From: Serratia grimesii NBRC 13537
GTDB lineage: Bacteria; Pseudomonadota; Gammaproteobacteria; Enterobacterales; Enterobacteriaceae
Assembly: GCF_001590905.1 (NCBI RefSeq)
Contig: NZ_BCTT01000007.1
Coordinates: forward strand, 1 to 64,000
DNA: 64,000 nt
Reading direction: 5' to 3'
The notes beneath the pieces are model-generated. The model searched no databases. It worked only from the letters and a program-made list of their open reading frames with translations, and had not been told where the DNA came from. Of the stretch, positions 9,784 through 27,587 are shown piece after piece. A program made the position numbers and the translations under genes. The first letter of the stretch is position 1; each line of letters opens with the position of its first letter.

Positions 9784-9849
9784 GATGCTATTCCTGTCGT
9801 TTGCCGTTATGCGTAAGCGTTAATACAACCTTGAGCGTTTCAGGTCCTT

Positions 9850-9904
9850 ACCATACCATGGTATGTAAAGTTTTCAATCCGATATCCGTAAATAAAAAAT
9901 TACC
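9850..9904 (-). promoter_or_regulatory. aroF promoter with adjacent strong and weak TyrR boxes
   Basis: On the minus strand TTGAAA (9877-9872), a 16-base spacer and TATGGT (9855-9850) form a promoter about 67 bases before aroF. A TyrR box (consensus TGTAAA-N6-TTTACA) at 9904-9887 reads GGTAAT-N6-TTTACG on the minus strand. A weaker one at 9881-9864 reads CGGATT-N6-TTTACA and overlaps the -35. Both keep the key G at position 2 and C at position 17. Their centres are 23 bases apart, the usual strong/weak pairing that allows tyrosine-dependent repression. Confidence 0.65.
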
Positions 9905-10049
9905 ACTGATAAACCAGCTTGAAATGCCATATTAAAAGAGAGATAAAAAAGAAATCAATTACATGATTTACAAGAAAAAATAAACAAAACAAATCAAGGT
10001 TGTCGTTTATCCTTTTTAACCTTTAAGAATCGGAGTTATCGCCACAAAG

Positions 10050-10067
10050 TGTAAATAATAATATACA
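10050..10067. promoter_or_regulatory. Distal TyrR box upstream of aroF
   Basis: TGTAAATAATAATATACA differs from TGTAAA-N6-TTTACA by one base and lies about 155 bases upstream of the promoter-proximal pair. E. coli aroF also has a distal third box. The rest of the 583-base aroF/ydiY gap (9784-10366) is AT-rich with no ORF I can support. Confidence 0.6.
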
Positions 10068-10316
10068 CAACATTTTCCACAACAATACATCAGGCCACGA
10101 TACGCCTCTCGGCCTCATCCGGATTATCAAGCACTGCTGCCACCCACCGTTGCCACAAGACGACAACCTTAGCTAAAATCCAGCCAAACGCTAAGGATAC
10201 TCAGCATGATATGCCACAGGAAGGAGTTAATTAAGTAGAAGAAAAGTGAATAAGTGATGATGAGAAATTAAAAACTTAAGCTAATCGTAGCTATTTTGGT
10301 CGCCATGACGAACCGA

Positions 10317-10343
10317 TATAATGTGACCGAAATCACTTATAAT
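10317..10343 (+). promoter_or_regulatory. ydiY promoter region with CRP site between two TATAAT boxes
   Basis: TGTGA-CCGAAA-TCACT at 10322-10337 matches nine of the ten conserved CRP bases. It is flanked by TATAAT at 10317-10322 and another TATAAT at 10338-10343. The ydiY ATG is at 10367. A CRP site at this place would occlude the upstream -10 and start. Confidence 0.55.
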
Positions 10344-10366
10344 CACTCTTAACAACTGGATCCAAA

Positions 10367-11131
10367 ATGCTCTCTTTACGCGCTCGCCGCGCTATTCCGC
10401 TGTTCATTAGCTGCTTAACGACTTTCACCAGTGTTTCAGCCCTTGCCGACAATACGCTTTTTACCGCGATGGACGATCCGGCCACCGCGAAAAAGCCGTT
10501 TGAAGGTAACGTCCAGGCGGGTTACAACTCTCAGTCAGGCAATTCGCAAAGCTCAACCCTGTTGGCCAACACCAGCATGACCTGGTTCAACAGCGATGCT
10601 GCCTACAGCCTCTGGGGAGCTGCCAACAACACCACCTCCTCTAATGTGCGTTCGTCAGAAAAGTATCAGGCCGGTGGCCGTACCCGTTATAACCTGACCG
10701 ATCGAAACTATTTGTTCGGCCAAGCAAGTTGGCTGAGTGACCGCTTCAACGGATATGACTCCCGTTCCACGCTGACCGGCGGTTATGGTCGCCAAATCTT
10801 AAACGGGCCTCTCAGCGATCTGCGTGTTGAATTTGGTCCAGGCGTTCGTCACGATGAATATCATGGTGGTGGTCGTTCAACCAAAGCGCTGGCCTACGGT
10901 GCAGCTAACTATTCGTACCAGTTAACCGACAACACCAAGTTCTCCGAAGGTGTGTCCGCACTGGCTAACGAAGAAACCACCTTGAACTCGGAAACCGCGC
11001 TAAGCGTCGCGATTAACGAAAGGTTCGCACTGCGTCTGGCTTACAACGTGACTTACAACAGCAAGCCGCCAGCGTCCGCACCGAAGAACACTGATACCAC
11101 AACGTCCATCAGCCTGGTATACGGTCTGTAA
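10367..11131 (+). CDS. ydiY: YdiY-like outer membrane protein (DUF481)
   Basis: Predicted outer-membrane beta-barrel of 254 residues. A signal peptide (1-27, ending SVSALA-DN) is followed by alternating beta-strand sequence with repeated YSLWGAANN and YLFGQASWLSDRFNGY motifs, and it ends on an aromatic-rich strand (SLVYGL). It resembles E. coli YdiY closely over the full length (FTAMDDPATAKKPFEGN, EKYQAGGRTRYNLTDRNY). Function is not established; the family is sometimes called salt-induced outer membrane protein. It is single-gene, with a possible CRP site upstream and a terminator at 11161-11187. Confidence 0.88.
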   Translation: MLSLRARRAIPLFISCLTTFTSVSALADNTLFTAMDDPATAKKPFEGNVQAGYNSQSGNSQSSTLLANTSMTWFNSDAAYSLWGAANNTTSSNVRSSEKYQAGGRTRYNLTDRNYLFGQASWLSDRFNGYDSRSTLTGGYGRQILNGPLSDLRVEFGPGVRHDEYHGGGRSTKALAYGAANYSYQLTDNTKFSEGVSALANEETTLNSETALSVAINERFALRLAYNVTYNSKPPASAPKNTDTTTSISLVYGL

Positions 11132-11160
11132 TTTCCCGCCTCTATACCTAATCTTCTCTA

Positions 11161-11187
11161 AGCCCATCATTGATGGGCTTTTTTTAT
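11161..11187 (+). terminator. Terminator of ydiY
   Basis: AGCCCATCA (11161-11169) and TGATGGGCT (11171-11179) form a hairpin followed by a T-run to about 11185. It lies 30 bases after the stop. Confidence 0.88.
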
Positions 11188-11235
11188 GTCCAAAGTTCGA
11201 GGTTAAACATTTTGCTAAAAACATCACGTGAGCTA

Positions 11236-11280
11236 TTGACGACTTTAGCAAATAGCTTAATACTGTATATATACACAGTA
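11236..11280 (+). promoter_or_regulatory. SOS promoter: sigma-70 elements overlapped by a LexA box
   Basis: TTGACG (11236-11241), a 17-base spacer and AATACT (11259-11264) form a promoter. TACTGTATATATACACAGTA at 11261-11280 fits the LexA operator CTGT-N8-ACAG with matching flanks and covers the -10 and the expected start near 11271. The only downstream coding sequences on this strand are a 15-codon ORF and the Ogr-like gene. Confidence 0.8.
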
Positions 11281-11283
11281 ATT

Positions 11284-11376
11284 ATTGAACGGGTACAGAG
11301 CATGAACACTATCAATTATCACAGTAGATACTGCGAGCATCACGCTTAGGAGCGCTGATACCACTTCCCGTTCAAT
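11284..11376 (+). other. Long-range inverted repeat enclosing a 15-codon ORF in the SOS leader
   Basis: ATTGAACGGG (11284-11293) and CCCGTTCAAT (11367-11376) are perfectly complementary 10-base arms about 73 bases apart. Between them an ATG at 11302 opens MNTINYHSRYCEHHA, stopping at 11349. In the transcript predicted from the LexA-controlled promoter the arms would close a large stem. The small ORF has no clear ribosome site and may not be translated. Apart from this and the LexA promoter, I see nothing else in the 11132-11454 gap beyond the ydiY terminator. Confidence 0.45.
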
Positions 11377-11454
11377 AGACAGGGCAGTCTCTAAACTTTT
11401 TGATTTTGGCCCATGCCCGATCCGTTCTCACTTAATACATTGCAAGGGGGTTTT

Positions 11455-11673
11455 ATGATGCACTGTCCACTCTGCGGTAGCGTGGCCCATACCCGCTCTA
11501 GCCGTTACCTCAGCGAAGCGACCAAAGAACGCTATCACCAATGCCAGAATATTAACTGTAGCTGCACCTTTGCCACGCATGAGTCCGTCGCACGAGTGAT
11601 CGTAAAGCCTGGCGATATTATTCCGGCTCAGCCGCACCCGGAAAAAACCAAGCCGCGTGCCGCCGCGCTATAG
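11455..11673 (+). CDS. Ogr/Delta-like zinc-finger late gene activator
   Basis: Small protein of 72 residues, the length of phage P2 Ogr. Ogr-type proteins bind upstream of phage late promoters and contact the RNA polymerase alpha C-terminal domain. The HCPLCGSVAHTRSSRY and ERYHQCQNINCSCTF stretches carry the zinc-binding Cys pairs of this family. The ATG at 11455 matches the MFHCP start of Ogr and has AAGG 7 bases upstream; the ATG at 11458 is an alternative. No other phage gene is in the window, so this is a prophage remnant or a domesticated regulator. The LexA-type promoter upstream suggests DNA-damage control. Target genes are unknown. Confidence 0.85.
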   Translation: MMHCPLCGSVAHTRSSRYLSEATKERYHQCQNINCSCTFATHESVARVIVKPGDIIPAQPHPEKTKPRAAAL

Positions 11674-11676
11674 CGC

Positions 11677-11707
11677 AAAAAGTCTGCCTATGACAGCAAA
11701 CTTTTTT
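11677..11707 (+). terminator. Likely terminator of the Ogr-like gene
   Basis: AAAAAGTCTGC and GCAAACTTTTT form an imperfect hairpin with one mismatch, ending in six T, immediately after the stop codon. Confidence 0.5.
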
Positions 11708-11725
11708 ATATCTAAATTTATACGC

Positions 11726-11758
11726 ATAAAAAAAGGGGTTGGCATATGCCAACCCCTT
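11726..11758 (-). terminator. Terminator of the rpsP-rimM-trmD-rplS operon
   Basis: AAGGGGTTGGCA and TGCCAACCCCTT form a perfect hairpin within 11733-11758. The A-run at 11728-11734 is a T-run on the minus strand. It lies just past the rplS stop. Confidence 0.92.
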
Positions 11759-11785
11759 CATAGATATTAACTTTTGGATGCAGCG

Positions 11786-12157
<372 letters not shown>

Positions 12158-12196
12158 CTAGGTAAACTGATATATCGGTCCCGTCGAGCCAGTTGC

Positions 12197-12964
12197 TCAG
12201 ACGTTCCCTTCATAGTCCTGCTGCTTGGACTGATGTTCCCGTTGGAACTCAGCCAGCAACACCGCTTGCTCGTCAGTCAGAGCTAGGCTTTCTAGAAGTT
12301 CAGGTCTTCTAAGCCAGGTACGGCCCAGCGACTGCTTTAAGCGCCAGCGACGTATCTCGGCATGGTTGCCCGACAGTAAAACTGGCGGAACCTCCATCCC
12401 TTCCAACACCTCAGGACGGGTATAATGCGGGCAATCCAGCAATCCGTCGGCAAAAGAATCTTCTTCTGCTGAAGCCTGATGGCCCAGTACGCCCGGTATA
12501 AAGCGGGCAACTGAATCGATCAGGGTCATTGCCGGCAGTTCCCCACCGCTGAGTACGTAATCGCCGATTGACCATTCTTCATCAATTTCGGTTTGGATTA
12601 CGCGCTCATCTACCCCTTCATAACGACCGCACACCAGAATCATCTTCTGGTTGGTCGCCAGTTCGCACACACCGGTTTGATCCAGCTTGCGTCCCTGAGG
12701 TGACAGATAAATCACCTTTGCTCCCTCGCCTGCCGCTGCTTTTGCTGCATGAATGGCTTCCCGCAAGGGTTGCACCATCATCAGCATTCCCGGGCCGCCG
12801 CCATAAGGGCGATCGTCCACGGTACGATGCCGGTCGTAGGTGAAGTCACGAGGACTCCAACACTGCACGCTCAGCAGGCCATTTTTTACTGCCCGGCCAG
12901 TCACCCCGTAATCGGTGATTGCGCGGAACATCTCAGGAAACAGGCTTACAATACCAATGAACAC
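12197..12964 (-). CDS. trmD: tRNA (guanine-37-N1) methyltransferase TrmD
   Basis: Essential SAM-dependent enzyme that methylates G37 of tRNAs reading codons starting with C or G (Leu, Pro, Arg), preventing +1 frameshifts. It has 255 residues with a SPOUT fold. The trefoil-knot SAM loop segments [11 protein letters not shown] and [15 protein letters not shown] are visible. The C-terminal helical tRNA-binding part is present. It lies between rimM and rplS in the conserved ribosomal operon. Confidence 0.98.
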
Positions 12965-25924: not shown

Positions 25925-26986
25925 TTAAAACTCTTCGCTGGTTTCAGCTTCATCGTCGAAGCCTTCATTGGTTGCAGCAACCAGTTCACCGCTGCTGTGC
26001 AGCAGCAGATCACGCAGTTTTTTATCCAACTCAGCGGCAACCGCAGGGTTTTCTTTCAAGAAATTACAGGCGTTTGCCTTACCTTGACCAATTTTATCGC
26101 CGTTGTAGCTGTACCAGGCACCCGCTTTCTCGATCATCTTGTGCTTAACGCCCAGATCGACCAATTCACCGCGGCTGTTGATACCTTCACCGTACAAGAT
26201 TTGGAACTCGGCCTGTTTGAACGGAGCAGCGATTTTATTTTTTACCACTTTAACGCGGGTTTCGCTGCCGATCACTTCGTCGCCTTCTTTCACCGCGCCG
26301 ATACGGCGGATATCCAGACGGACAGAAGCATAGAACTTCAATGCGTTACCACCGGTGGTCGTTTCCGGGTTACCGAACATCACACCAATTTTCATACGGA
26401 TCTGGTTGATAAAGATCAGCAGCGTGTTGGCGTTTTTCAGGTTACCGGCCAGTTTACGCATTGCCTGGCTCATCATACGTGCCGCCAGGCCCATGTGTGA
26501 GTCACCGATTTCGCCTTCGATTTCTGCTTTTGGCGTCAACGCTGCTACGGAGTCAACGATGATCACATCAACCGCGCCAGAGCGGGTTAAGGCGTCACAG
26601 ATTTCCAATGCTTGCTCACCCGTATCTGGCTGAGAACACAGCAGGTTGTCGATATCAACGCCCAGCTTTTTCGCATATACCGGATCCAGCGCATGTTCAG
26701 CATCAATGAACGCACAGGTTTTACCTTCGCGCTGCGCTGCAGCGATAACCTGCAGGGTCAGGGTCGTTTTACCTGAAGACTCTGGACCGTAAATTTCAAC
26801 GATACGGCCCATTGGCAGGCCGCCCGCACCCAATGCGATATCAAGTGACAGTGAGCCGGTAGAGATCGTTTCTACGTCCATAGAACGGTCTTCACCCAGA
26901 CGCATGATGGAGCCTTTGCCGAACTGTTTCTCAATCTGGCCCAGTGCCGCAGCTAGCGCCTTTTGCTTGTTCTCATCAATAGCCAT
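25925..26986 (-). CDS. recA: Recombinase RecA
   Basis: Forms ATP-dependent filaments on single-stranded DNA for strand exchange and for LexA self-cleavage. It has 353 residues from the [11 protein letters not shown] start at 26986, equal to E. coli. Walker [10 protein letters not shown] is near residue 66, and L1/L2 DNA-binding loops ([21 protein letters not shown]) and the acidic C terminus ([10 protein letters not shown]) are present. The in-frame ATG at 27007 is rejected. A LexA box lies upstream. Confidence 0.99.
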
Positions 26987-27066
26987 TTTTGCTCCTTCGT
27001 TACGCAATGTCGGTGTTACCCCACACTGCCACTGAATGTATGTTGTGCAGGAAATGTCACTAATTA

Positions 27067-27086
27067 TACTGTATGGTCATACAGTA
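27067..27086. promoter_or_regulatory. LexA box of recA
   Basis: TACTGTATGGTCATACAGTA is a near-perfect palindrome with CTGT-N8-ACAG, about 80 bases before the recA start. It is the SOS operator known at this place. Confidence 0.95.
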
Positions 27087-27098
27087 TCAAGCCTAATT

Positions 27099-27587
27099 TT
27101 ACAAAAATTCATCAAGGGCGGTTTGCAGCGCGAAAATCGTCGCTTGAAGCCGCACTGCATCGCGATCGCCAGCAAATTGCATCTTACGCGCCAATACTCG
27201 CCCGGTGCGTTCAGCAAAACCAAACCAGACCGTACCCACCGGTTTTTCCGCACTACCACCATCCGGCCCGGCAATACCACTGACCGACAGTGCCAAATTG
27301 GCCTGTGCTGCATGTAATGCTCCCTGAGCCATTTCACGCACCACTTCTTCGCTCACGGCACCGTGCGCCACCAATGTACCTTCAGCCACGCCCAGCAAGT
27401 CATGTTTCGCGGCATTACTGTAGGTGACAAAGCCACGATCAAAATAGGCAGAACTGCCGGCAATGTCAGTGATCGCTTTGGCGATACCACCGCCAGTACA
27501 AGATTCCGCACAGGTGATCCACTGACCATTAGCCTTCAGTTTTTCCCCTACCGCAATACTGAGTTTACGCAGTTGGTTTTCACTCAT
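27099..27587 (-). CDS. pncC: Nicotinamide-nucleotide amidohydrolase PncC (CinA C-terminal family)
   Basis: Deamidates NMN to nicotinate mononucleotide in NAD recycling. It has 162 residues, the single-domain form of the CinA C-terminal family. Conserved ITCAESCTGGGIAKAITDIAGSSAYFDRGFVTYSN and VSGIAGPDGGSAEKPVGTVWFG are visible. Upstream of recA on the same strand, as in E. coli (ygaD). Confidence 0.93.
   Translation of the reverse strand: MSENQLRKLSIAVGEKLKANGQWITCAESCTGGGIAKAITDIAGSSAYFDRGFVTYSNAAKHDLLGVAEGTLVAHGAVSEEVVREMAQGALHAAQANLALSVSGIAGPDGGSAEKPVGTVWFGFAERTGRVLARKMQFAGDRDAVRLQATIFALQTALDEFL

Follow-up and report, generated by a model that had tools for sequence, protein, structure and literature searches.

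THE LOCUS AND ITS SOS PROMOTER

The locus raises the question of what a lone gene for a phage-type Ogr/Delta activator does behind an SOS-type promoter on a bacterial chromosome. The gene occupies positions 11455 to 11673 on the plus strand of the window (the whole 64-kb stretch of DNA analyzed), with its ATG at 11455 and the stop codon included, is preceded by an RBS-like AAGGGGG (11444 to 11450, plus strand), and encodes a 72-amino-acid (aa) zinc-finger activator, named NucC below. Its left neighbor is a DUF481 gene (10367 to 11131, plus strand; PF04338, 197 bits), which we take to be YdiY-like and which is followed by a terminator-like hairpin (11160 to 11180, plus strand). Its right neighbor is rplS (11786 to 12142, minus strand), presumably encoding ribosomal protein L19, with a terminator-like hairpin on its 3' side (11732 to 11759, minus strand); both hairpins are matches to a consensus only. 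The DUF481 gene stands left of the locus in 26 of 26 relatives (18 without and 8 with tail genes), and rplS is a 97 to 100% identical neighbor in 26 of 26. The first-pass annotation had stated that no phage structural genes are near, and this was borne out: only 330 bases separate the DUF481 gene from nucC, and a genome-wide search for a P2-type tail with PF04985, the tail tube family, gave no match.

A sigma-70-like promoter, TTGACG-N17-AATACT (11236 to 11264, plus strand), has its -10 element overlapped by a LexA (SOS) box, TACTGTATATATACACAGTA (11261 to 11280, plus strand), with one mismatch to the LexA consensus used for scoring. Both had been pointed out before, and both held up. The box is the sole match to the consensus with three or fewer mismatches in the 64-kb window (mean of 0.00 in 100 shuffles), and each of the 18 orthologous loci that lack tail genes, among them that of the window, has both box and promoter, a recurrence which argues that they are not due to chance. 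A near-consensus SOS box overlapping a promoter is the sequence mark of a LexA-regulon member.

The coding sequences reported downstream of the promoter, a 15-codon open reading frame (ORF) (11302 to 11349, plus strand) and the Ogr/Delta gene, were both found again. It is very improbable that a small RNA or the 15-codon peptide is what the SOS promoter drives, with nucC transcribed from a box-independent promoter of its own farther downstream. An ATG starts 22 bases past the box in many species, and a weak promoter-like match lies at 11432 to 11459, but the short ORF varies in sequence and length among the relatives, and its ATG is missing in G023, the sister of the window genome in the tree. 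In addition, no Rfam match at the gathering score was found in 9800 to 12200, and no terminator-like hairpin was found on the plus strand between the LexA box and nucC. A conserved SOS peptide was rejected because the ORF is not conserved, and an RNA element was rejected because of the missing Rfam match.

IDENTITY, CONSTRAINT, AND DISTRIBUTION OF NucC

The 72-aa protein matches PF04606 with 76 bits (cut-off, 26.3) and phrog_603 with an E value of 6.2e-26, and it scored 111.9 with NCBIfam NF007241, just under the cut-off of 116, with a query that started one codon late. It shares 64.5% identity over 62 residues with P2 Ogr, and its cysteines at residues 4, 7, 30, and 35 have the CX2CX22CX4C spacing of Ogr/Delta proteins; all four are kept in 26 of 26 orthologs. 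The gene is nucC, an ortholog of Serratia NucC, here in a reduced allele.

The operon of nucE (holin), nucD (lysozyme), and nucC (Ogr homolog) was reportedly so named by Jin et al. in 1996, the year in which NucC, encoded by a cryptic prophage, was reported to activate the extracellular nuclease, and McAlister et al. are said to have purified NucC in 2003. The protein printed as 'RecC' in a citing paper is reportedly the RegC of Ferrer et al. 1996. The nuclease of one relative (G022) can be aligned to all 245 aa of the chain in structure 1g8t, taken here to be the S. marcescens nuclease, and shows no mismatch. The nuclease of the window genome is a close relative of that of G022, which makes Serratia the probable genus. 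In passages of PMC2716549, NucC and 'RecC' are named as activators of nuclease and bacteriocin in S. marcescens, with binding and activation of these promoters stated for that species, and are referred to Ferrer et al. 1996 and Jin et al. 1996.

Among 30 genomes of the genus, the Ogr gene adjoins rplS in 26, and nucA (PF01223) is present in exactly those 26 genomes. A genome search found no Ogr gene in G026 to G028, and G025 has five Ogr genes, none of which adjoins rplS within the 10 to 11 kb inspected. This co-absence is weak evidence, because the other four genomes are only 1.5 to 3.6 Mb in size. The nucC tree agrees in its main clades with the tree of nucA and rplS-trmD. In the 5.07-Mb window genome, nucC is the sole PF04606 match.

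The gene is under purifying selection where it stands alone. The pN/pS ratio among seven nucC-only alleles is 0.033. The nucC genes of the window and of G018 have 13 synonymous and 0 nonsynonymous differences, so that their products are identical in the 71 residues compared.

THREE FORMS OF THE SITE

Flanked by the DUF481 gene and rplS, the site has three forms in the 26 genomes. The bare form, with nucC only, is found in 7 (the window genome G000, G005, G006, G007, G017, G020, and G023), with 99 to 184 bp between box and nucC. The lysis form, found in 11, has the box, a holin gene, a lysozyme gene, and nucC in that order, the proteins of G003 being a holin of 73 aa and a lysozyme of 171 aa.

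The remaining 8 (G004, G009, G013, G014, G015, G018, G019, and G029) have a tail form, examined in all eight over everything that lies between the DUF481 gene and nucC. Genes X, R, V, W, J, I, H, G, FI, FII, E, T, U, and D were detected in 8 of 8 by tblastn with P2 queries. Queries with nucE and nucD of G003 likewise detected a holin and a lysozyme gene in each of the eight, and nucC is the last gene in every case. Genes like A or B precede the tail genes, with A undetected in G009 and G015 and present as fragments only in G004, and B undetected in G029; FI of G019 is split over two frames and may be broken. Queries with P2 Q, P, O, N, M, L, Int, C, and Cox gave no match in the eight intervals at an E value of 0.001. 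The tail form thus has the gene content of a putative R-tailocin, with no capsid genes detected.

An SOS promoter heads 8 of 8 tail clusters and is similar to that of the alleles without tail genes; the head promoter of G018, ATTGACGCCTTTAGCGTTTTGCTTAATACTGTATAAATAAACAGTA, is visibly like the bare-form promoter of the window, ATTGACGACTTTAGCAAATAGCTTAATACTGTATATATACACAGTA. By this resemblance, the SOS promoters of the bare form and of the tail-cluster head appear to be homologous. The bare form accordingly resembles the two ends of a tail cluster, its SOS head promoter and its terminal ogr gene. The lysis form did not arise by recent deletion from the present tail clusters, since the holins and lysozymes of the two forms are only 59 to 62% and 66 to 69% identical. 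Mapped on the tree, the forms require 9 Fitch changes (mean of 12.4 and minimum of 8 with shuffled labels), and because tail, lysis, and bare states are interleaved, a simple one-way loss along the tree is not established. An old reduction followed by exchange between the forms is favored, the direction of gene loss being one that we infer. No nucC-only allele or tailocin at this site was found in the literature searched, which comprised titles, abstract openings, and some passages, the best 20 of longer lists, and thin coverage of subscription journals.

CANDIDATE TARGETS OF NucC

The search for Ogr-type palindromes elsewhere in the genome that the first-pass annotation had proposed found TGT-N12-ACA before nucA and before a colicin gene. 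In the window genome, TGTACCAACGCTGACACA lies 115 bp ahead of the nucA ATG and TGTACCAGACATTGCACA lies 114 bp ahead of the ATG of a gene for a 573-aa protein with ColA N-terminal and colicin pore-forming domains. The LexA half-sites CTGT-N8-ACAG stand downstream of both, at gaps of 58 (nucA) and 59 (colicin). Scored against the LexA consensus, the nucA box agrees in 17 of 20 positions; the colicin box is weak, at 13 of 20, which was counted against the NucC model. The more specific TGTACCAN8ACA occurs in 9 copies in the window genome versus 5 for the reversed control; of the seven copies not at nucA or the colicin gene, five fall within long open frames, one is followed by no ORF, and one precedes a lipoprotein-like ORF. 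The last (L108; G000:C5:184976-184993) lies 94 bp before a gene for a 395-aa lipoprotein-like protein and has no LexA box.

A composite of LexA half-sites (CTGT-N8-ACAG), 43 to 73 bp, and TGT-N12-ACA was defined, with the reversed pattern as the control. It gave 47 matches versus 2 for the control in the 30 genomes of the genus, and 4 versus 1 in the window genome. Nineteen of the 47 belong to nucA, every one with a gap of 58, and 7 belong to bacteriocin-type genes with gaps of 57 to 59: those of G000, G001, G006, and G010 (PF01024), G007 and G020 (PF06958), and G005 (assigned by N-terminal resemblance alone). The other 21, belonging to neither nucA nor bacteriocins, were counted against the NucC model; 9 are at recA, in the wrong orientation and with a gap of 43, 3 precede phage-fiber-like genes, 2 precede genes for related 117-aa proteins, and 7 are others, two of them (one in the window genome) with gaps of 57 to 58. 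Because the 19 nucA matches represent one orthologous promoter, the independent support comes from nucA together with the bacteriocin genes. In each of the 26 nucA promoters, a LexA box scores 17 to 19 of 20. Their TGT-N12-ACA is perfect in 19, off by one base in 5, and off by two in 2, and these seven imperfect sites were also counted against the model.

The genus has 12 PF01024 genes, of which 4 have the composite, 7 have TGT-N12-ACA without a LexA box, and one, in G011, has the box but not the site. In the box-less group, the site lies 145 to 166 bp upstream of six genes, presumably bacteriocin-28b-like, and at -102 for one gene of G020; since the motif is so short, these seven are weak evidence.

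The Ogr-type site is also present in the tail clusters, with TGT-N12-ACA at -88 of FI in 8 of 8. The strict form was found upstream of V in none of the eight, the sequence there resembling P2 pF, and in none of the promoter regions of P2 that were inspected, where the sites annotated for pF and pO/pP (AF063097) are, by eye, TGT-N12-CCA. With the strict form missing in these P2 regions and at V, TGT-N12-ACA is only one version of the Ogr-type site, a point that was counted against the model. In the tail promoters the distance from site to -10 element is 52 by eye, and no obvious -10 element lies at that spot in nucA, which was counted against the NucC model.

Two candidate targets were rejected. 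The composite at the recA promoter (window 27008 to 27084) has its Ogr-like match downstream of the LexA box relative to recA; this orientation was checked in the window, and the other eight genomes have near-identical letters. The LexA half-sites there (27069 to 27084) lie upstream of a minus-strand gene (25925 to 27007) judged by eye to be recA-like; farther upstream is a CinA-like gene (27099 to 27587). Autoregulation by NucC was also rejected: the stretch that separates nucC and the DUF481 gene contains no TGT-N12-ACA, and TGTRYCN9ACA does not occur in the window (1.82 expected by chance).

Several other features were observed in these promoter sets. Three genes of G001 and G002 for phage-fiber-like proteins (L137, L118, and L159) lie behind a LexA box and an Ogr-like site with a gap of 51 to 52; Gp34 trimer and S74 chaperone domains were found in L137, and L118 and L159 were assigned by N-terminal resemblance. 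Two similar 117-aa proteins (L128 and L162, of G015 and G023) are encoded behind a LexA box and an Ogr-like site with a gap of 47. The 26 aligned nucA promoters share a conserved block that separates the LexA box from the Ogr-type site and reads ACACATTC-N7-GAATGTGTTGCATTGTTGTATTCG in the window genome (L110; G000:C6:557231-557322). By eye, this block varies less than the left half-site of the Ogr-type site; it could be the real binding site, which was counted against the NucC model. A sequence resembling the Fur-box motif (AATGATAATNATTATCATT type) stands, by eye, beside the Ogr-type site in the bacteriocin promoters L158 (the clearest), L161, L133, L122, and L114; the resemblance is weaker outside L158, including at the colicin gene of the window genome. 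If real, it would make iron a third input.

NucC BEYOND THE GENUS

NucC had a match in 81 of 198 genomes of the family, and 11 of these 81 places were inspected around the nucC-like gene. It adjoins rplS directly in 8 of 11 (G060, G106, G045, G115, G197, G053, G063, and G200) and lies 3.6 kb from rplS in G190, with I, H, and G genes between; rplS was not found near it in the other two places (G193 and G068). The nine rplS-linked genomes fall in six other genera. Three of the nine (G060, G045, and G190, in two other genera) have nucA, and 3 of 3 of their nucA promoters carry the composite with a gap of 58 to 59. The nine genomes gave 12 composite matches versus 5 controls, of which, beyond nucA, 3 were at recA and 6 were unassigned; this low excess and the lack of nucA in six of the nine were counted against the NucC model. 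In the six genomes without nucA, the nucC-like gene stands by tail genes (G197, G053, G063, and G200) or in the lysis form (G106 and G115), and NucC must therefore have other work there.

These clusters bear on whether nucC works in trans for a tailocin or for P2-type prophages resident in the genome, as Ogr does in P2; the first-pass annotation had considered resident prophages as one use for a domesticated activator. In 8 of the 26 genomes, the P2-type tail cluster found here ends with the ortholog and has the Ogr-type site before FI, and the nucC-like gene ends a tail cluster in four genomes of other genera in which nucA was not found. However, the window genome has neither a PF04985 match nor a second Ogr gene, and nucC is strongly constrained in seven species without a cluster at the locus, so that this service is a most unlikely explanation of the window gene. 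About as unlikely is that nucC is a nonfunctional leftover of a tail cluster retained by chance beside rplS. The absence of neighboring lysis and tail genes speaks for it, as does the partly degraded cluster of G045, in another genus, which retains X, holin, lysozyme, and lysB genes together with R and W fragments and is perhaps a decaying intermediate. The low pN/pS ratio of the bare alleles, the four cysteines, the SOS box in 18 of 18 loci, and the co-occurrence with nucA in 26 of 26 genomes all argue against it.

A PROPOSED TWO-KEY CIRCUIT

The reading preferred here, to which we assign a probability of roughly 0.86, is that LexA represses nucC and its targets and that NucC, encoded in a reduced allele related to a tail cluster, would activate nucA and probably the ColA-like colicin gene. 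Upon DNA damage, cleavage of LexA would release the promoter at 11236 to 11264, and NucC would be made. NucC would bind TGT-N12-ACA upstream of the secreted-nuclease gene nucA and recruit RNA polymerase, and it would probably act likewise on the gene for the ColA-like pore-forming colicin elsewhere in the genome. With LexA half-sites near their start codons, nucA and the colicin gene would need both the loss of LexA and the presence of NucC. Such a circuit would be a coherent feed-forward loop of the AND type, which should delay and sharpen firing. The nuclease would be released by secretion. No lysis function accompanies the window locus, since holin and lysozyme are absent there.

A broader reading is somewhat favored over its negation: the late activator of a tailocin turned into a genus-wide core regulator, the site alternates among tail, lysis, and activator-only forms, and NucC commands a scattered regulon of nuclease and colicin or S-pyocin genes through one layout (Ogr-type site, 57 to 59 bp, LexA box, and start) under two-key control. 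If this is true, cells without the tail weapon retain its trigger for other weapons. It would also offer a plausible stepwise path from a phage regulator to a core bacterial regulator, with its states preserved in living species, and the single promoter layout predicts a wider NucC regulon that includes several unrelated bacteriocins.

The earlier proposal of a domesticated SOS-responsive activator acting in trans thus survives in part: the conserved box, the purifying selection, and the sites at nucA and the colicin gene point to host promoters as its probable targets, whereas the missing PF04985 match speaks against resident P2-type prophages. A host-acting SOS-responsive activator was right in kind and is not new, for it is the published activator NucC, and with NucC dating from 1996 as a nuclease activator, the surprise is moderate. 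The nucC-only allele, the connection to a tail cluster at the same site, and the promoter layout shared by nuclease and bacteriocin genes are new.

COMPARISON WITH KNOWN SYSTEMS

Serracin P and xenorhabdicin are P2-type R-tailocins. Dickeyocin P2D1 is another. Like these, the site of the eight tail-bearing relatives has contractile-tail, holin, and lysozyme genes behind an SOS box, without matches to P2 capsid, portal, terminase, or integrase proteins. The tail function of the relatives is predicted from their genes, and the window differs in retaining only the head promoter and the last gene. With P2 Ogr, NucC shares the zinc-finger family and, in the eight tail-bearing alleles, the place after gene D. 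Unlike ogr, nucC of the window stands behind an SOS promoter, with no phage genes at the locus, and its proposed targets are chromosomal.

The closest counterpart is NucC of S. marcescens, with which the window locus has in common an Ogr/Delta protein, the same place in nuclease-bearing relatives, an SOS box at the head, and nucA with an Ogr-type site. The nucE-nucD-nucC operon differs in its holin and lysozyme genes, which are present in 11 of the 26 genomes and absent in the window species and six others; nucC stands alone in the window only because its allele lacks the lysis and tail genes that relatives have at this site. In addition, the candidate second target in the window genome is a ColA-like colicin and not bacteriocin 28b.
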